Below the pieces are notes generated by a model that saw only the letters and a program-made list of their open reading frames with translations, searched no databases and had not been told where the DNA came from. From contig CAKUHP010000041.1 in assembly GCA_934658705.1 (NCBI GenBank), positions 1 to 10,028 of the forward strand: 10,028 nucleotides of DNA. Direction: 5' to 3'. This stretch comes from an uncultured Collinsella sp. (GTDB lineage: Bacteria; Actinomycetota; Coriobacteriia; Coriobacteriales; Coriobacteriaceae). Positions 1 through 7,881 of this stretch are shown here, piece after piece (the first letter of the stretch is position 1; each line of letters opens with the position of its first letter). The translations under genes and the position numbers were made by a program.

Positions 1-1921
1 ACGTAAAGGTGACGTTGTCGGTCATGATCGGCAGCGTCGAGGTCACGGTCACGTTGGAGTCCTTGGCCGCGCTGCGCTCGTCCAGCGCCGCGCACGTCTG
101 CGTAAAGTCATCGGGGTTGGCGACCGCCAGCAGGTCATAGCGCGTAATGTGCCCGTACTGCTTGGGCGAAAGCGCCACCGATGTGTCGCGAATACCCATA
201 CCGCAGATCACGAGCGCCGTACAGCCCGCAATACCGAAGATAGTCATAAAGGCACGTTTTTTGTACCGGAACAAATTGCGCGCGGCCACCTTGTTCAAAA
301 AGCCCATGCGGCGCCAAATAAAGCCGATGCGCTCGAGGAAAATGCGCGAGCCGGCGCGCGGGGCCTTGGGGCGCATGAGCGAGGCCGGAGTCTCGGCCAT
401 CTCGTGGCGGCAGGCGATAATCGTGGCGCCCACCACGCCCACGGCAAACAGCGCCACCGAAACGATCGAGGACACGATGTCGTACGAAAGCAGCATCTGG
501 GGCAGAGAGTACATGTCGTCGAACACCGTAAACAGGAACAGCGGCAGGCCCACAAAGCCAAAGATATTGCCAAGCACGCCACCGATTAGACAGGCCCACA
601 GCGAGTAGTCCACGTATTTGGACAGAATGCGCCCGCGCGAATAGCCAAGCGCCTTGTACAGGCCGATGAGCGTGCGCTCCTCCTCGACCATGCGCGTGGC
701 GGTGGTGAGGCTGATGAGCACGGCGACGATAAAGAAGATGAACGGGAATACGGTGGCAATGGCCTCGATTGAGGAGCTATCGCTCTCGACGCTCGAGTAG
801 CTTGCGATGTTATTGCGATTCTGGATATACCAGGTGCATTCGCCCAGGTCGGAGAGCTCGGCGCGGGCATCGGCGAACTGTTGGTCGGCGGCGGCGCGAC
901 GCTGGTCCAGGTCGGCCTGCGCCTGCGCACGCTCCTCGCTGCCTTCGGCCATGCGGTTGATGTTGTCCTGCTCGATCCCAAAGACCATGGCGGCCTGGCG
1001 CTCGGCTGCATCCAAGCTTGCCGGCGTATCAACCGTCAGCTCCTTGGCACGCACCTTCTCGCGCTCGTCGCGAATCTTATCAATATTGGCTTTGACCTCG
1101 TCAATCTTTGTCGTATAGGCATCGGAATAGGAGTTGAGGTTCTTAGCCCCCTCGACGACCACGTGAATCGCAGAATAGGACGACGACGTCGCGGCATCCT
1201 CGCTTACGTAGAACTTGTAGTCCGCGGCCGAGGAAGCACGAAAGGCATTGACCGTCGAGTCGGAACTCACGTCGGTGGGGTCGAGAACCTCAGCCGTAAT
1301 GGTGTAATCGCCCGCGGCAAACTGGTCCTTGGCGCTTTGGTTCGACGAGCTCGCATCGTTGGCGGCAAAACTCACCGTATCGCCGAGCTTTTTGCCCGAT
1401 GCCTTCAAAAAGCGCGAAGTCACCGCCACCTCACCCGAAGTCTCGGGCAAGTCGCCGCGCACCAACACCGGCTGGTCAATATTCTCTTTAGAGAGGCTCT
1501 GCACGACCACGCGCTCGCGCGCCGTGCCCACGGCGGTGTAGGCGGTCTCGGTATAGATGCCCTCGGCCGTCTCGACGCCATCGACCTCTTGAATCGCAGC
1601 AAGGTCATCATCGGTCAGACCATAGGTCGATTGAACGTTGATGTCGTAGATATTCTGCTGGTCAAAGTAGGCATCGACCGAGTCGCACAGGTCCTCGCAA
1701 CCCGCCTTGAGGCCGCACATCACGCTCACGCCGAGCGCCGTGATGACCACGATGGACAGGAAGCGTTTAAGGCTGCCGCGAATCGTGCGGTAGATGCCAC
1801 GGCGAAACACCGTCGGCACCATGTCGTTTGAGCTTTGGGCAGTGCGGTAAGTCGCAGAATCCCGGTCGCGCTCCACGTGCTCCGCGTCGTAGTTTTGGCT
1901 GTTTTGGCGGTCCTGATCCAT
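1..1921 (-). CDS. FtsX-like ABC transporter permease, MacB-type (partial, C-terminus off the left edge)
   Basis: The minus-strand frame is open from an ATG at 1921 to the window edge (640 codons, no stop). This is a membrane subunit of a MacB/FtsX-type ABC transporter, a family that drives extracytoplasmic work such as peptide, lipid or drug export. Seen in order: a hydrophilic N-terminus; TM1 around residues 51-70; an extracytoplasmic domain around 70-300; a charged, Ala/Glu/Arg-rich likely coiled coil around 260-370; three TM helices around 385-405, 440-468 and 483-503, with the FtsX-typical segment RTLIGLYKALGYSRGRIL after the first; then a fifth TM near 555-573, preceded by NLFRYKKRAFMT, which opens a second FtsX repeat. 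The length so far and the second repeat suggest a protein of about 1,000 residues or more. It starts 5 nt after the ATPase stop codon, so the two are probably co-translated. The substrate cannot be told from sequence. Confidence 0.93.
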   Translation of the reverse strand, partial: MDQDRQNSQNYDAEHVERDRDSATYRTAQSSNDMVPTVFRRGIYRTIRGSLKRFLSIVVITALGVSVMCGLKAGCEDLCDSVDAYFDQQNIYDINVQSTYGLTDDDLAAIQEVDGVETAEGIYTETAYTAVGTARERVVVQSLSKENIDQPVLVRGDLPETSGEVAVTSRFLKASGKKLGDTVSFAANDASSSNQSAKDQFAAGDYTITAEVLDPTDVSSDSTVNAFRASSAADYKFYVSEDAATSSSYSAIHVVVEGAKNLNSYSDAYTTKIDEVKANIDKIRDEREKVRAKELTVDTPASLDAAERQAAMVFGIEQDNINRMAEGSEERAQAQADLDQRRAAADQQFADARAELSDLGECTWYIQNRNNIASYSSVESDSSSIEAIATVFPFIFFIVAVLISLTTATRMVEEERTLIGLYKALGYSRGRILSKYVDYSLWACLIGGVLGNIFGFVGLPLFLFTVFDDMYSLPQMLLSYDIVSSIVSVALFAVGVVGATIIACRHEMAETPASLMRPKAPRAGSRIFLERIGFIWRRMGFLNKVAARNLFRYKKRAFMTIFGIAGCTALVICGMGIRDTSVALSPKQYGHITRYDLLAVANPDDFTQTCAALDERSAAKDSNVTVTSTLPIMTDNVTFT

Positions 1922-1926
1922 GGGCG

Positions 1927-2628
1927 CTACCACTCGATCGTCTCGATAGGCACGGGATTTTGCTGGACCGTCTCGCTCTCCACGCGACCGCTCTTAAAGC
2001 GGATCAGGCGGTCGGCCATAGGTGCGAGCGCGGAGTTGTGCGTAATGATGATGACCGTGATGCCATGCTTGCGGCAGGTGTCCTGCAGCAGTTGCAAAAT
2101 CTGCTTGCCGGTTTTGTAGTCGAGTGCACCCGTGGGCTCGTCGCACAGGAGCAGTTTGGGATTCTTGGCCAGCGCGCGGGCGATGGACACGCGCTGCTGC
2201 TCGCCGCCCGAAAGCTGCGCGGGAAAGTTGGCGAGGCGCTCGCCCAGGCCAACCTGGCGAAGCGTTTGCTCGGCATCGAGCGAATCGGGGCAGATCTGTG
2301 CTGCGAGCTCGACGTTTTCGAGCGCCGTCAGATTGGGAACCAGATTGTAGAACTGAAAGACAAAGCCCACGTCGGCGCGACGGTATTCCACGAGCTGCGC
2401 TTCGTTGGCGAAGCTCACGTCGCGTCCGTCCACCGTCACAGTGCCGGAGGTCGCCGTGTCCATGCCGCCCAGAATGTTGAGCGCCGTGGTCTTACCGGCG
2501 CCCGAAGCGCCCAGAATAATAGCGAGCTCGCCGCGCTCAACGGTAAAGCTCGCACCATCGAGCGCATGAATGCGGGCATCGCCCTCGCCGTATGCCTTGA
2601 TGACGTCTTTGAATTCGATATAGGCCAT
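1927..2628 (-). CDS. ABC transporter ATP-binding protein (MacB/LolD family)
   Basis: This 233-residue cytoplasmic ATPase is the usual length for MacB/LolD-type nucleotide-binding subunits. All motifs are intact: Walker [10 protein letters not shown] (40-48), Q-loop Gln92 in [18 protein letters not shown], signature LSGGEQQR (139-146), Walker B LLLCDEP (159-165), D-loop GALD (167-170) and H-loop His197 in IITHN. The segment after the Q-loop ([12 protein letters not shown]) is typical of ATPases that pair with FtsX-like permeases, and that permease follows 5 nt downstream. The ATG at 2628 gives the canonical [14 protein letters not shown] start. The ribosome binding site is weak (GGGAA about 9 nt upstream). 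A structured dispersed repeat lies about 50 bp upstream and could fall in the leader. It presumably powers export or membrane extraction by the partner permease. Confidence 0.97.
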
Positions 2629-2677
2629 CGATCGGTTCCCATCTGGTCGGATAACTCTTAAGTATTACCCATTTCGC

Positions 2678-2712
2678 ACCTACCAAAAAGGGACAGGTTT
2701 ATTTTGGCAGGT
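2678..2712 (-). repeat. Dispersed hairpin repeat, copy 1
   Basis: Arms ACCTACCAAAA (2678-2688) and TTTTGGCAGGT (2702-2712) flank a 13-nt loop. Read on the minus strand, all 11 pairs form with one G-U wobble; on the plus strand one pair becomes A-C. A second copy at 6465-6500 on the plus strand shares the loop core AAAC(C/A)TGTCCC and keeps the stem through wobble changes. It lies upstream of the ABC ATPase in the sense direction. The short T-rich tail after the plus-strand arm also allows a terminator reading, but no gene ends there. Confidence 0.7.
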
Positions 2713-2830
2713 TTTATATGGGAGAATGGCGGGTGCGGGCGGGACGACAGCGCGGTAGATGGGTTATCGGCGGAATCGGGGTGGCCTGTTAAATGGCGAG
2801 CGCGCAGCTCAATCTATCAATCAAATTATT

Positions 2831-2844
2831 CGAACAGCTGTTCG
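2831..2844. promoter_or_regulatory. Probable LexA-binding SOS box
   Basis: CGAACAGCTGTTCG is a perfect 14-bp palindrome of the form CGAAC-N4-GTTCG, the LexA operator form known from Bacillus and mycobacteria; the left flank (TT) extends it to near TCGAAC-N4-GTTCG. It sits 58 bp before the ATG of the GyrI-like gene and just upstream of two overlapping -10-like hexamers (TATGAT at 2850 and 2855), so a bound repressor would cover the -35 region. No lexA gene is in the window. Confidence 0.72.
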
Positions 2845-2849
2845 TTTTC

Positions 2850-2860
2850 TATGATATGAT
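2850..2860 (+). promoter_or_regulatory. Putative -10 element for the GyrI-like gene
   Basis: Two overlapping TATGAT hexamers (2850-2855 and 2855-2860) lie 6-11 bp after the SOS-like palindrome and about 40 bp before the start codon. There is no good TTGACA; the -35 position falls inside the palindrome, as expected for a repressible promoter. The assignment is by pattern only. Confidence 0.5.
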
Positions 2861-2901
2861 GCTGGCAACTACACAGGCACATGCGCAGAAAGGCGACCAC
2901 C

Positions 2902-3540
2902 ATGGCGTACGATTTCAAGAAGGAATGCAAGGAGCTCTACAAGCCCACAGGCAAACCGAGCATCGTAACCGTCCCGCCCATGAGCTACGTCGCCGTGCGC
3001 GGCAAGGGTGACCCAAATACCGAGGGCGGCGAGTATCAAAGCGCCCTACCATTACTTTACGGCATCGCCTATACCGTCAAGATGTCGAAGAAAGGTTCAA
3101 GGAGTATCGAGGGCTATTTCGACTTTGTGGTACCGCCGCTCGAGGGTTTCTGGTGGCAAGACTCCCCTAGCAGCGACATCGACTATGTGCGCAAGGACGA
3201 TTTCAACTTCATCTCTTGCATCCGCCTGCCCGATTTCGTCACCCAGGCAGACTTTGACTGGGCCGTCGCGGAGGCTACCGCCAAAAAGAAGCTGGACTTT
3301 TCCGCAGTCGAGCTGCTTAAGGTTGACGAGGGCCTCTGCGTGCAGTGCATGCATACCGGGCCCTACGACAACGAACCGGCGACCGTAGACGCTATGCATG
3401 AGTTTGCGGCAAAACAAGGCTACGTCCTCGACTTCTCCGACACCCGCCTGCACCACGAGATCTATCTCTCCGACCCACGCAAATGCGCACCGGAGAAGCT
3501 CAAGACCGTGGTTCGTCATCCCGTCAAACGCGCTGAGTAG
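2902..3540 (+). CDS. GyrI-like small-molecule-binding domain protein
   Basis: This 212-residue soluble protein resembles the stand-alone GyrI-like family (COG4832 type), related to the SbmC/GyrI fold and to the effector-binding domains of MerR/AraC regulators. Supporting segments are TVPPMSYVAVRGKGDPN near the N-terminus, ALPLLYGIAYTVKMSKK, the aromatic PLEGFWWQD, VQCMHTGPYDNEPATVDAMHEF and the C-terminal HHEIYLSDPRKCAPEKLKTV. There is no DNA-binding domain, signal peptide or TM helix. The ATG at 2902 is preferred over the ATG at 2881 because the family-like start MAYDFKKECKELY begins there and an AAGG-type site precedes it, while 2881 has none. An SOS-like operator lies upstream. E. coli sbmC (gyrI) is itself DNA-damage inducible, so a DNA-stress or drug-protection role is plausible but inferred. 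The ligand is unknown. Confidence 0.88.
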   Translation: MAYDFKKECKELYKPTGKPSIVTVPPMSYVAVRGKGDPNTEGGEYQSALPLLYGIAYTVKMSKKGSRSIEGYFDFVVPPLEGFWWQDSPSSDIDYVRKDDFNFISCIRLPDFVTQADFDWAVAEATAKKKLDFSAVELLKVDEGLCVQCMHTGPYDNEPATVDAMHEFAAKQGYVLDFSDTRLHHEIYLSDPRKCAPEKLKTVVRHPVKRAE

Positions 3541-3586
3541 CGTAGGGTTCTGTCTGTGTGGCAAGTTTGAGGCTACCCGGCCGACA

Positions 3587-3618
3587 GCTTCAAGGACATC
3601 CGGCAGTTTCCTTGACGC
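3587..3618 (+). other. Hairpin downstream of the GyrI-like gene
   Basis: TCAAGGA (3590-3596) pairs perfectly with TCCTTGA (3609-3615) around a 12-nt loop, and GC/GC extends it past one mismatch (3587-3618). No T-run follows, so it is not a standard intrinsic terminator. It may close the GyrI-like transcript or be part of a structured region ahead of the abi gene. Confidence 0.4.
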
Positions 3619-3638
3619 AATTGGTCGCATCCTATAAG
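3612..3638 (+). promoter_or_regulatory. Possible promoter for the abi leader
   Basis: TTGACG (3612-3617) and TATAAG (3633-3638) are separated by 15 bp, shorter than the ideal 17. If used, transcription would start near 3645, just ahead of the hairpin at 3652-3687. Confidence 0.35.
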
Positions 3639-3644
3639 TTTGTT

Positions 3645-3693
3645 TTGCTAAAGCTGGAAAGCCTCTCAACGATGCGCAACTCCAGCTCTTTTT
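3645..3693 (+). ncRNA. Candidate small RNA/leader with terminator ahead of the abi gene
   Basis: Between the possible promoter and the abi start is a hairpin with arms AGCTGGA (3652-3658) and TCCAGCT (3681-3687) and a 22-nt loop, followed by CTTTTT (3688-3693). It ends only 16 nt before the abi ATG. Most transcripts would stop here, giving a short RNA of about 49 nt with occasional read-through into the abi gene. Some Abi-family HEPN genes have been described as paired with a small RNA, which makes this worth noting. The exact RNA ends and any function are inferred. Confidence 0.35.
3652..3693 (+). terminator. Intrinsic terminator-like hairpin in the abi leader
   Basis: A perfect 7-bp stem (3652-3658 with 3681-3687), a 22-nt loop and a following CTTTTT resemble an intrinsic terminator. 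It could end read-through from the GyrI-like gene or attenuate abi expression. Confidence 0.5.
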
Positions 3694-3709
3694 ATATCAA
3701 GAGGACAAA

Positions 3710-4566
3710 ATGAAATATCAGAAGTCGTGGAAATCCATCAGCGAACAGGTAACGCTACTGATAGAAAACAAGGGCCTTGAGTGCGCCAACCAAAGCGAGC
3801 TCGAGCGCGCTTTGGTCGAAATCGGCTACTACAGACTGTCCGCCTACTGGTTTCCCTACAAAATCAAAAGCAAGTCCGGGAACACCATCTTTCGTGAGGG
3901 CACACATTCGAAACCATCATCCGCGCGTATGAATTTGACCGAGGCCTCCGACAGTTAACGTTTGACGCGGTCGGTAGAATTGAGATTTATCTCAGAAGCA
4001 GGATTGCCTATCTTGCCTCTGAGGAATCCGGACCTTTCTGTTACCCTGGCGCAGCAGTAGCGAGGCTCAAACGGGAGTTCTCCACAGCGAAGAAAAACGA
4101 GCAGTACATTAAGCACTTCGTGGCTAAATACGGTGACGAACAGGAGCAGCCGCCCTATTGGATGATGATGGAGTGCGTCACGATGGACACGATTGAGCTA
4201 CTCTATTCTGAAATGTCGCCGCAAACGAAAGCAACAATTGCAGGCAAATTCAGCGTGAAAGTACCCGTCCTCAAGAATTGGATTTCTGTACTCCGCGTCT
4301 CCAGAAATGTTTGCTGTCATCACTCTAGAGTTTGGAACAGAACATGGGGCGTAAAGCCCATGATCCCCAAAGCGTGGAAAGGATTTCAAGGCTCTAACGA
4401 CAAGACCTTTGCCGTCTTAGCCGTTCTTTACTACATGCTAGAGAGCATTGGCGAATCGGCACAATGGCGGCACGACCTTGAAGAGTTAATCACGAAGTTC
4501 AGCGACATTCCGCTAGAAAAAGTCGGCTTTTGCAAAAACTGGCGCGAGACGGTTCCGTGGGCGTAA
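3710..4566 (+). pseudogene. Abi_2 family (AbiD/AbiF-like) HEPN abortive-infection protein, frameshifted
   Basis: The reading frame from ATG 3710 matches the Abi_2 family start (LLIENKGLECAN, IGYYRLSAYWFPY, FREGT), then leaves frame and stops at 3956-3958. The family continues without a break in another frame from 3907 to the TAA at 4564-4566: FETIIRAYEFDRGLRQL, RIEIYLRSRIAYL, PPYWMMMECVTMDTIELLY, and a HEPN RX4H motif RNVCCHH (Arg199 and His204 in the restored protein) followed by SRVWNR. Restoring one T in CATTC near 3905-3909 would give a normal 285-residue protein with FREGTHFETI. The family acts as phage-triggered RNA-targeting toxins. A ribosome binding site (AGAGGA) precedes the ATG. 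The gene is visibly more A/T-rich than its neighbours, which suggests transfer. The downstream part could start at GTG 4120, but without the N-terminal half. A sequencing error cannot be excluded. Confidence 0.88.
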
Positions 4567-4794: not shown

Positions 4795-6030
4795 GTGTCG
4801 GGAAGCGCTACGTCAACTAGGGCCAAACACCTACTCAACACCTATAGCGGCCTCATGCTTATGGGTGCCGTCGGAATCCCTATCGGCATCATCGTTGGCG
4901 CCATTTGCGCCCTCTTTGGTCGCGTGCTTCTGGCGATCGGCGCCTTCCGCGACGAGCACGTCTCGCTGCTTCTCCCCCTCCTCGCCCTCATGGGCTTGGC
5001 CATCGTATTTGCCTACCGCACCTGGGGCAAAGGCACCGATCGCGGCATGAGCTTGGTGTTCGAAGTGGGCCACGGGCGCGAGGATGCTATCTCCCCGCGC
5101 TTGGTGCCGCTCATTATGCTGAGCACGTGGGGGACGCACCTCTTTGGCGGCAGCGCGGGACGTGAGGGCGTGGCCGTGCAGATTGGCGCGACCGTCTCCC
5201 ATTGGATCGGCCAGCGTTTGCCCTTCCGCGACCCCGACAACACGTTTTTGCTCATTGGCATGGCCGCTGGCTTTGCCGGGCTCTTCCGAACGCCCCTCGC
5301 CGCCACGGTCTTTGCCATTGAGGTACTGGTCGCCGGACGCATGGAATACCGCGCGCTGTTCCCCGCACTTACCGCCTCGCTCACCGCGAGCATGACCTCC
5401 GGTGCCCTGGGCCTCGAGAAGTTCGAGGTTGCCGTCGTCGCCTCGTACGCCCTTGATCTTCCCGGCCTTGGGCGACTTGCGGTGCTGGGCATTATGTTTG
5501 GCATGGTAGGAGGCGCCTTTGCCTGGTGCCTTGCCCATGCCAAGACCCTTGCGGCGCGTCTTCTCCTAAATCCCTATACGCGCATTGCCGTCATGGGCCT
5601 GCTACTATCGGCAGTTCTGTTCGCACTGTGGCAGGGGCGATACTGCGGACTTGGCACCAATCTGATTTCGGCCGCGTTGAGCGAAGAGGGCACGGCGGCC
5701 ATCATGCCTTGGGATTGGGCACTCAAGTTTATGCTCACCATTGTCACGCTCGCCGCCGGATATCAGGGTGGCGAGGTGACGCCACTGTTCTCCATCGGCG
5801 CCAGCCTGGGTGTCGTGCTCGCCGGGATGCTCGGCATGCCCGTCGAGCTCTGCGCCGCGCTCGGCTACGCCGCCGTCTTTGGCAGCGCCACCAATACGCT
5901 ACTTGCGCCCATCCTTATCGGTTGCGAGGTCTTTGGGTTTGGCAACTTGCCGCTGTTCTTCATCGTCTGCGTCGTGGCCTACCTGTTCAACATGGACAAG
6001 TCGATCTACGCCCTGCAGGAGCGAGCGTAA
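4795..6030 (+). CDS. CLC-F type fluoride/proton antiporter (voltage-gated ClC family)
   Basis: A 411-residue polytopic membrane protein, hydrophobic almost throughout, of the CLC family. CLC-F members export fluoride in exchange for protons. Seen: the segment at the usual GSGIP position reads GMSLVF (84-89), with Met85 in place of the chloride-coordinating Ser, as known for CLC-F proteins; HLFGGSAGREGVAVQIG (115-131) carries the external gating Glu124; GLFRTPLAATVFAIEVL (162-178); GYQGGEVTPLFSIGASLG (322-339); and Tyr396 near the end as a candidate anion-coordinating Tyr. The GTG at 4795 is chosen because GGAGG stands 4 nt upstream, directly after the terminator; a later ATG at 4855 lacks such a site and would cut into the first helix. 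Expression is probably switched on by fluoride through the upstream riboswitch. It stands alone in its transcript. Fluoride specificity is inferred from motifs and context. Confidence 0.93.
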   Translation: MSGSATSTRAKHLLNTYSGLMLMGAVGIPIGIIVGAICALFGRVLLAIGAFRDEHVSLLLPLLALMGLAIVFAYRTWGKGTDRGMSLVFEVGHGREDAISPRLVPLIMLSTWGTHLFGGSAGREGVAVQIGATVSHWIGQRLPFRDPDNTFLLIGMAAGFAGLFRTPLAATVFAIEVLVAGRMEYRALFPALTASLTASMTSGALGLEKFEVAVVASYALDLPGLGRLAVLGIMFGMVGGAFAWCLAHAKTLAARLLLNPYTRIAVMGLLLSAVLFALWQGRYCGLGTNLISAALSEEGTAAIMPWDWALKFMLTIVTLAAGYQGGEVTPLFSIGASLGVVLAGMLGMPVELCAALGYAAVFGSATNTLLAPILIGCEVFGFGNLPLFFIVCVVAYLFNMDKSIYALQERA

Positions 6031-6103
6031 AAAGCCGCCCTGTCGAAATTTCGGCACCAAGAACAGCAGCGCGGAGAACCTGGCTCACGAACCCGCCTCA
6101 GAA

Positions 6104-6413
6104 TGGAGCGCAGTTTCCGAATGATGCTACCCGCGGAAAGCACATCCCGTTCTGAGTTGATGTATTGGGACACAGCTTCCGCCGATAGTCTCATCCGGAA
6201 AGAGCATCCCATTCCAAGGCGTCAAACTGGGATGCAGTTTCCGCTGAAGGCTTCATCCGGAAAGCGAGTCCCATTCCGCGGCGATATTCTGGGATGCAGT
6301 TTCCGGAACGATCTCCCAAGGGAAAGCGTGTCCCGTTCTGGGGCTTCAAACTGGGATGCCGTTTCCGCTTGGCGCCCCAAGGGGAAACGGCATCCCATTT
6401 CGCGCGCAGCACC
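6104..6413. repeat. Five tandem 62-bp palindromic units (BIME-like array)
   Basis: Units start at 6104, 6166, 6228, 6290 and 6352, an exact 62-bp step. Each has a 5' arm like TGGGATGCAGTTTCCG, a variable middle of about 14 bp, a 3' arm like CGGAAAGCGAGTCCCATTC at fixed offset (6134, 6196, 6258, 6320, 6382), and a variable spacer. The two arms are inverted forms of the same core, GGGAYNNNSTTTCC, so the array is ten half-sites in alternating orientation. Unit 5 is the best palindrome: TGGGATGCCGTTTCC (6352-6366) pairs perfectly with 6383-6397, and CTTGG/CCAAG continue the stem inside. Since 62 is not a multiple of three and the frame changes each unit, it does not encode a repeat protein. It lies between the convergent CLC and kinase genes. 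Confidence 0.9.
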
Positions 6414-6464
6414 GAGACGCTGCCTCCGCCCATGGCCTCCCCCACCGGCATTTCCCCAGATAAA

Positions 6465-6500
6465 ACTTGTCAAAACAAACATGTCCCTTTTTTGGCAGGT
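6465..6500 (+). repeat. Dispersed hairpin repeat, copy 2, at the kinase 3' end
   Basis: ACTTGTCAAAA (6465-6475) and TTTTGGCAGGT (6490-6500) form 11 pairs with two G-U wobbles on the plus strand, around a loop containing AAACATGTCCC. It is the counterpart of the element at 2678-2712 in opposite orientation. It ends one base before the kinase stop codon (6502-6504), so on the kinase transcript it forms the immediate 3' end; there the stem has mismatches and ends in a TTTT, so it may also serve as a terminator. Confidence 0.68.
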
Positions 6501-6501
6501 T

Positions 6502-7881
6502 TTAGAGGCGAACGGTAAAGGTAATCTGATGGTCGTGACCGGATACGGCAGCGGAGCCTCCGTGGGCCTCGGCAATGGCGCGCACCACGGATAGGCCCAC
6601 GTCCGAGCCGCCCGTCTTGGAACTGCGCGAAACATCTGCGCGATAGAAGCGATCGAACAGCCGGTCCAGGTCGCCCTCGGGCAGCTCGTCAACGACATTC
6701 GATACGACAAGCTCGGCCGAGGCTTTATCCGCACCGCGCGAAACGGCGCGCAGGCTCAGCTCAATCACGCTGTCCTCGCTCGCGTATCGCGTGGCGTTGT
6801 CCAGCAGCAGCTCAACCACCTGCGCCACCGCCGCGGCGTCGGCGTGGGCCCGCACGCCGCTCGCAATCGACGTCGACAGGCGCTTGCCGCGCGAAACCGC
6901 CACCGATTCAAACGGCGCCGCCACCTTGTCCACCGCTTCCGAAAGATCGATTGCCGCTATGGTAAAGCCGGCCGACCCCTCGTCCATGCGCGCCAAAAAC
7001 ACCAGACGCTCCGTGAGCGCCGTCAGTCGCGCGACCTGCTCGTGAATGCTCTGCGTCCACTCGCTCTCGCCGCTCTCGATCTCTTGCACCTCGTTGGCGG
7101 CATCGATCACTGCCAGCGGCGTCTTGATCTCGTGGCTCGCGTCGGTAATGAAGCGCTTCTGCTTGCTATAACTCTCGACCATCGGCCGAATCACCGCGCC
7201 CGAGGCAACCGTCACAATCGCCAATACCGCCAGCCAGCCAATGCAGCTGATGGCCACGCTGGCACTTAAAAACGAATGGAAGCTCGAAAGCTCACGTGAA
7301 CAGTCGACGAACACGTAGGTGGTCTCGTCATCCTGAACCGTAACCGTATAGCGGTAGTTACCAGAAAAGCCCGAGGTCCAGCCCTTGGAATATAGTCCAG
7401 CAGCGATACGGGCGGCACGCTTGGCACCCACCGCGGCAATGCGGGCCGTGTTGACATCGGTCACCTGCCCACCGGCAATCGACACTGTAAAGTAACGCGT
7501 GTCGAAGGGAGACTCCGCCGTCATGCCTTCAAAATGCCCGTCGCGAACAGCCGCCCGGTTATCGGTAGTGACCTTGCCGGCAGCCGCATCCTGACCGGGG
7601 TCGGTCTTAGGCTCGTTCTCCCAATCAATGCCGTCCTTGCCCGCCAAGATATAGTCCAGGCGAGCGTCGGCCATCTTGCAGACATGCGAGTAGTTGACGA
7701 CGTTGATGCCGGCAATGATGAGCGCGAGCACGGCGGTCACGGCACCCATGGCAACCAGGATGAACTTGCGGCGCAGGCGACGACCCATTGCGCTAGCGGC
7801 ATCGGCGCGCCCCGGATTACCCGAGTCCACACCCATGCCGAGCTTTGCTGCCATGCGCTTCCACCACGCGCTCGCGCTCAC
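6502..7881 (-). CDS. Two-component sensor histidine kinase
   Basis: A 459-residue membrane kinase that should phosphorylate the OmpR-type regulator encoded just upstream. Order: basic cytoplasmic start; TM1 around 40-61; extracytoplasmic sensor around 65-205; TM2 around 208-230; HisKA with H-box FITDASHEIKTPL (phospho-acceptor His250); HATPase with N-box LLLDNATRYA (Asn362), F-box LFDRFYRAD (408-416) and G2-box GGSDVGLSVV (424-433). The G1 box lacks the usual DxGxG (here VSNVVDELPEGD), as in many EnvZ/PhoR-like kinases. The G2 box has Asp where Gly is usual (GGSGLGL), which might affect the ATP lid. The start is GTG at 7881, two bases after the regulator stop, with GAGGAGGG inside the regulator's last codons; ATG 7854 is an alternative. 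The stimulus is unknown. Confidence 0.95.
   Translation of the reverse strand: MSASAWWKRMAAKLGMGVDSGNPGRADAASAMGRRLRRKFILVAMGAVTAVLALIIAGINVVNYSHVCKMADARLDYILAGKDGIDWENEPKTDPGQDAAAGKVTTDNRAAVRDGHFEGMTAESPFDTRYFTVSIAGGQVTDVNTARIAAVGAKRAARIAAGLYSKGWTSGFSGNYRYTVTVQDDETTYVFVDCSRELSSFHSFLSASVAISCIGWLAVLAIVTVASGAVIRPMVESYSKQKRFITDASHEIKTPLAVIDAANEVQEIESGESEWTQSIHEQVARLTALTERLVFLARMDEGSAGFTIAAIDLSEAVDKVAAPFESVAVSRGKRLSTSIASGVRAHADAAAVAQVVELLLDNATRYASEDSVIELSLRAVSRGADKASAELVVSNVVDELPEGDLDRLFDRFYRADVSRSSKTGGSDVGLSVVRAIAEAHGGSAAVSGHDHQITFTVRL

Follow-up and report, generated by a model that had tools for sequence, protein, structure and literature searches.

The window, by which we mean the whole stretch of 10,028 nucleotides from an uncultured Collinsella sp. 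that was analysed, carries an array of ten 16-bp half-sites (YGGGAYRYNSTTTCCG) on strictly alternating strands with neighbours alternately 30 and 32 bp apart. The array is extragenic and is bounded on either side by the stop codon of a gene with a family match, a ClC-type chloride channel gene and a sensor histidine kinase gene:

4795..6030, + strand: ClC-type chloride channel gene, left neighbour (Pfam PF00654, E 1.5e-67), its stop 73 bp before the array
6104..6397, no strand: whole array, five 62-bp units with ten alternating half-sites (autocorrelation, pattern search, simulation)
6104..6119, + strand: half-site 1, with GGAGC replacing GGGAY (pattern/register, as for all half-sites)
6134..6149, - strand: half-site 2
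6166..6181, + strand: half-site 3
6196..6211, - strand: half-site 4
6228..6243, + strand: half-site 5
6258..6273, - strand: half-site 6
6290..6305, + strand: half-site 7
6320..6335, - strand: half-site 8
6352..6367, + strand: half-site 9
6382..6397, - strand: half-site 10, a near-perfect inversion of half-site 9 (also arm comparison)
6502..7881, - strand: sensor histidine kinase gene, right neighbour, convergent (Pfam PF00512, PF02518), 104 bp beyond the array

A sequence-only reading had proposed five units in a 62-bp register with the 3' arms at a fixed offset, and indeed the half-site series of each strand steps by exactly 62 bp. The ten alternating half-sites of that reading were also found, but not its even spacing of about 31 bp, which is in truth the alternation of 30 and 32, and the array that it extended to 6413 stops at 6397. 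In the autocorrelation of 6101-6413 the highest values are those at 62, 124 and 186 (0.63, 0.62 and 0.57; next highest 0.37). The pattern GG[GA]N6[TC]TTCC, searched on both strands, gave 10 matches in the whole window, all within the array and none elsewhere, compared to a mean of 1.35 and a maximum of 5 matches, with no more than 2 in any stretch of 310 bp, in 400 first-order Markov simulations of the window. TRF run on the window did not report the array. Its copies are merely 60–73% alike and every unit contains inverted arms, in line with the earlier view that this is not a CRISPR. As had also been noticed, unit 5 and unit 5 alone is nearly palindromic, with 15 of 16 arm positions equal compared to 9, 11, 12 and 10 of 16 in the remaining units. 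About 48 bp to the right lies one copy of a second, unrelated dispersed palindromic repeat (6445-6501 and, inverted, 2678-2722), which folds with a 15-pair stem and recurs in 8 further loci examined.

The ClC gene of the window is 90–92% identical over most or all of its length to five contigs of C. aerofaciens or Collinsella sp. (L001-L005; G numbers denote genomes and L numbers loci fetched from Collinsella genomes), and by this similarity we assign the window to the Collinsella aerofaciens group. An Abi_2-family gene (Pfam PF07751) is present in two pieces in the window, at 3710-3958 (N-part, E 0.00079, below cut-off) and 4120-4566 (C-part, E 6.5e-18), in a stretch that is absent from L001-L004. 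Strict full units were found in 7 of the 10 genomes reached via the examined loci and in 22 of 43 Collinsella genomes, with 2–18 units each and none for the reversed-pattern control in all 43. Family-wide this amounts to 22 of 65 genomes: the 22 family genomes outside the genus set, which are other genera by inference as the genus search returned 43 of the 65, contain no strict full unit, and the reversed pattern was absent throughout. The three complete genomes G011, G012 and G027 hold 38, 27 and 53 strict half-sites (control 1, 2 and 0). Including weak ones the numbers are 72, 55 and 88, counted solely at loci seeded by a strict site; for BIMEs and REPs more than 100 copies per genome are usual. 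The C. aerofaciens group carries dozens of half-site copies per genome, intergenic, head-to-head and in 62-bp steps. Grouped by the similarity of their flanks, the 129 arrays of at least two sites (a number that includes redundant fetches) form 18 clusters, and at least two of these clusters hold multiple arrays. Their geometry is that of the window, with 413 of 468 neighbouring pairs less than 130 bp apart (redundant loci included) spaced by 32 bp from minus to plus (231) or by 30 bp from plus to minus (182); the others are plus-to-minus pairs at 29 bp (29), same-strand pairs at 61–62 bp (19) and 7 further pairs. The stretch around aspS is 93–100% identical among array genomes and at most 87% identical to genomes outside, by which the array genomes look like one clade.

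The number of sites at a given locus is variable. At the ClC locus 3, 5 or 10 half-sites were seen depending on the strain, with a remnant in L016; the gap after ClC holds no half-sites in L003 and L005, and L003 has a gene for 224 amino acids there instead. In L013-L017 DNA matching window positions 1-4070 joins directly to DNA matching 5830 onward, and the ClC gene is cut to about its last 66 codons beside an Abi_2 remnant. Inspection of the aspS locus by eye in the 22 array genomes showed an array in 14 (broken off in two), a remnant in one and no array in seven, and the genes beside the array differ from strain to strain. The arrays at this locus in G014 and G007 (L183 and L188) break mid-site into a common unrelated sequence, perhaps an insertion element; REPs are reported as IS targets (PMC1525189). 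The earlier reading had asked for further copies and length variation and had named the lack of both as an argument against an expandable repeat family; as copies occur genome-wide in relatives and copy number changes at this very locus, the comparison speaks the other way and also agrees with its suggestion of a multi-site protein-binding platform. The genes flanking the arrays look functionally unrelated (by eye, with a family search for the neighbours in the window alone). In practical terms, the array locus offers a means of strain typing.

Among 312 half-sites collected by relaxed detection GGG at columns 2–4 and TTTCC at columns 11–15 are nearly fixed, which is partly built in as the detection tolerated one mismatch among these eight core letters. 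The same sites have A at column 5 in 259 cases and mostly Y, R, Y and R at columns 6–9. For an orthology test the arrays of one genome were compared with their BLAST counterparts in another, and sites were not required in the counterpart; reference arrays, here and in the transition/transversion test, were picked by the site model and counterparts were not. In 182 orthologous array pairs, limited to an identity of 75–98.5% and non-independent as reciprocal pairs were retained, core columns 2–5 and 11–15 mismatched at 317 of 10281 positions, compared to 1576/9062 in the spacer, 1338/7849 in the middle, 1347/5720 at arm columns 6–10 and 2870/34571 outside the arrays. The core letters GGG and TTTCC mismatch in 0.2–5% compared to 17% for the spacer. 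Core columns change 5–6 times less than spacer columns, and this difference between orthologous arrays indicates that purifying selection acts on the half-site core. Changes at the variable columns are strongly biased, with transition to transversion ratios of 169:0 at column 1 and 223:1 at column 6 (together 392:1) and 733:116 at columns 7–9 together, compared to 731:845 in the spacer; column 10 prefers transversions (68:206). Flexible YR steps are read indirectly by proteins such as Fis and CAP, and the transition bias at columns 1 and 6 would fit such an indirect readout.

We then considered whether this selection concerns a hairpin or a double-stranded site. Arm letters within a unit match no better than those of shuffled partners (114 pairs, z 0.4; relaxed 156 pairs, z 0.7), and folding energies are no different from those of column-shuffled controls, be it for half-sites of 31 nt (z -1.0) or for units of 46 nt (z 1.0). 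Pairing inside a half-site did not exceed z 1.7 at any of the ten offsets tried. As single strands the units do fold strongly (-22.1 kcal/mol compared to -11.9 for mononucleotide shuffles), as expected of any inverted sites. The pooled consensus had suggested a REP hairpin of 31 nt, which was rejected for the lack of pairing and for folding like that of the column shuffles; the consensus looks palindromic because both orientations of alternating sites were pooled. The lack of overall arm covariation thus favours a double-stranded protein site over a hairpin. A residual pairing signal is nevertheless present: arms are identical at columns 5–10 in 11 of 156 units (4.3 expected; maximum of 2000 shuffles 11), and mismatches that break pairing on one strand are concordant between the units of an array to a degree reached in 18 of 5000 permutations. 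A per-column version of the latter test (6/5000) was set aside, being inflated by within-unit correlation. Duplicated units or arm-to-arm conversion could be behind both the identical arms and the strand concordance, and some units of the aspS locus show matched unusual arms by eye. The spacers have a direction of their own, which is mostly yet not always constant along an array: 697 of 790 informative sites (redundant loci included) agree with their array, and flips occur inside arrays.

From these data we consider it rather probable that the arrays are a lineage-specific, BIME-like intergenic family of duplex half-sites for a sequence-specific protein, bound cooperatively along the array. 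The half-sites look like docking places for a putative protein, each being a 16-bp double-stranded site in which the protein would touch GGG and TTTCC on the same face of the DNA, the two contacts being separated by about one helical turn with a deformable pyrimidine-purine hinge (YRYR) in between. The alternating sites at 30 and 32 bp, i.e. three turns, would then all face the same side, and the protein could bind cooperatively along the array. The arrays might act in chromosome organisation or local insulation and not in the control of single genes.

A different origin, which we regard as unlikely but take seriously, is that of true REP/BIME-type non-autonomous mobile repeats, spread as folded single strands by a transposase (RAYT) with a helix-turn-helix (HTH) domain. 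The layout is that of BIMEs, the presence and copy number of the arrays vary, and several arrays have neighbours that by eye resemble transposases or a recombinase, which fits mobile DNA. RAYT-type genes, proposed earlier as something to look for, are present in the Collinsella genomes searched, with matches to the IS200-like transposase domain (PF01797, IS200-type included) in 37 of 43. Of the 22 array genomes, 21 have a member of one subfamily, here called L128-type after its locus, at 71–100% identity, compared to none of the 21 array-less Collinsella genomes, where the best near-full-length match has 43% identity and one fragment of 47 residues 53%. This co-occurrence is confounded, as the array genomes appear to be one clade, and no L128-type RAYT was found in the array-bearing G033, whose assembly may be incomplete. 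The L128-type protein scores 55.2 bits with the NCBIfam model for REP-associated transposases (cut-off 80), 43.6 bits with Y1_Tnp and 24.8 bits with a C-terminal HTH (HTH_23, cut-off 24.6). Inverted palindromic repeats of their own, with different stems, flank eight of the nine further RAYT loci examined in Collinsella (L037, L125, L116, L117, L119, L123, L127 and L134; the exception is L130). GGGAC occurs in four of the five RAYT-flanking repeat families (6 of 7 strings compared) and the half-site has GGGAY, a possible family likeness that is worth following and not a proof; otherwise the RAYT-linked repeats examined are different sequences from the half-site. Against mobility, none of 25 PF01797 loci scanned (most IS200-type loci left out) contains a half-site, and six of the 21 L128-type loci that were read closely have just one or two partial matches each. 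A single inverted pair was seen at L128-type loci (two examined); its first arm covers the start codon, its second lies about 500 bp past the stop, and it is unlike the half-site. The arms do not covary overall, and mobility alone does not explain why the core is conserved in place among orthologs. All six loci read (L128, L131, L132, L126, L038 and L039) show a partial half-site with one core mismatch on the reverse strand about 14 bp upstream of the RAYT start codon, which could be due to chance or an autoregulatory site.

A further reading, which we consider a long shot, is that the arrays organise the chromosome as sites of a domesticated RAYT or of a different protein specific to the clade. 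Such a protein would have given up the cutting of folded single strands and would bind duplex half-sites via its C-terminal helix-turn-helix, the sites being kept on the origin side and depleted near the terminus for nucleoid layout or division timing. For the position on the chromosome we used the three complete genomes, taking as origin the region of rsmG, rnpA and dnaA, genes that were named by eye (dnaA was observed in G011 and G027). All arrays on the main contig with at least two sites including a strict one, 12 in G011, 9 in G012 and 13 in G027, lie no farther from the origin than 0.74, 0.61 and 0.59 of the half-chromosome. Uniform placement would give such a terminus gap with P 0.028, 0.012 and 0.001, values that are post hoc and from non-independent genomes; as the loci are common to the three genomes, the gap is one observation and not three, and is suggestive only of arrays avoiding the terminus. 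Array polarity, which runs against the replication fork in 9/12 (G011), 7/9 (G012) and 10/13 (G027), was set aside, because this direction is a property of the single spacer and can change within an array, and because the three genomes have loci in common.

It appears very doubtful that the arrays are RNA elements, transcribed from adjacent 3' ends and forming hairpins for mRNA stability or termination, even if the array in the window is located between convergent genes, variation restricted to Y and R would suit G-U pairs and a weak strand concordance exists. The arms lack overall covariation, Rfam gave nothing at the gathering threshold within the window, and no terminator-like site (GC-rich stem and T run) was found in 5950-6560, where shuffles average 0.9. 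The idea that the array ends the two convergent transcripts thus found no support here, as in addition just 6 of the 17 mapped loci whose neighbours could be called have a convergent arrangement, 9 being co-directional and 2 divergent. At face value, these numbers are close to the 1:2:1 that random placement would give. The gene caller used at these loci dropped frames largely covered by the array and allowed 60 bp of overlap (one call overlaps by 58 bp), so that their extragenic position is not an independent test. PMC8040213 describes 20 palindromic candidate RNAs without a predicted terminator from human microbiomes, and the Collinsella element may be among them. A functionless, neutral tandem duplication of an intergenic segment would account for changing copy number and diverging units but is highly improbable, given a core that changes 5–6 times less than the spacer in orthologous arrays and variation nearly confined to transitions at fixed columns.

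Arrays of the BIME type have been known for decades, mainly via REP hairpins and their transposases. According to PMC2817692, BIME-2 arrays of REPs in E. coli and others are likewise regular, alternating short repeats at many extragenic loci with a length that varies between strains, and IHF, gyrase and Pol I are proteins bound by BIMEs and REPs. In contrast to BIME-2, the Collinsella repeat has neither a tag nor a palindrome preserved by complementary changes, its conserved part is a split GGG-N6-TTTCC, and it is found in one Collinsella clade only. REPINs and REPtrons with GTAG- or CGTC-tagged repeats, as presented in PMC3733652 and PMC8266576, also combine inverted pairs of short repeats with a RAYT in the genome, but the Collinsella half-site has neither GTAG nor CGTC and its arms vary independently overall. 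By eye no such tag is visible in the column frequencies around 183 + 197 non-redundant half-sites. Of the resemblance to BIME/REP arrays suggested before, the BIME-like layout thus stood and the hallmarks of REPs (tag, covarying palindrome, half-site at transposase loci) did not. The element works like a BIME and is not the tagged, hairpin-forming, RAYT-flanked element by which REPs and BIMEs are defined; it is best filed as a new, lineage-specific variant of BIME-type arrays. In the open-access literature, as far as it could be searched, no paper had both Collinsella and RAYT and no title or abstract concerned such Collinsella arrays. Sites of the nucleoid-occlusion proteins SlmA and Noc are single short palindromes excluded from the terminus. 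Similar to them the Collinsella arrays are spread over the chromosome at many places and seem missing near the terminus, but they keep a 62-bp register and their terminus gap is merely suggestive. In the Collinsella family the site itself allows selection to be measured, and what is selected looks like a duplex recognition motif and not like a hairpin. The old question of a benefit of such arrays to the cell thereby becomes open to direct testing, and this in a common bacterium of the human gut.

A protein of 332 amino acids encoded between twin arrays at the four loci inspected (L060-L063) was also considered as a driver and is treated as a passenger. Close orthologs (92–100%) are present in 10 of 43 genomes, all of them array-bearing, 12 array genomes are without one, and some match, mostly a distant paralog, exists in 39 of 43. 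Searches of Pfam and NCBIfam gave nothing above cut-off for this protein (best E 0.086 and 0.076), nor did it match any PDB entry; it presumably resembles AbiEi/Vsr-type nucleases. Finally, each of the three complete genomes has a lone half-site close to the origin, located in the short gap next to rsmG (G011:C1:1729505, L069, rsmG named by eye; L156 in G012 and L140 in G027).
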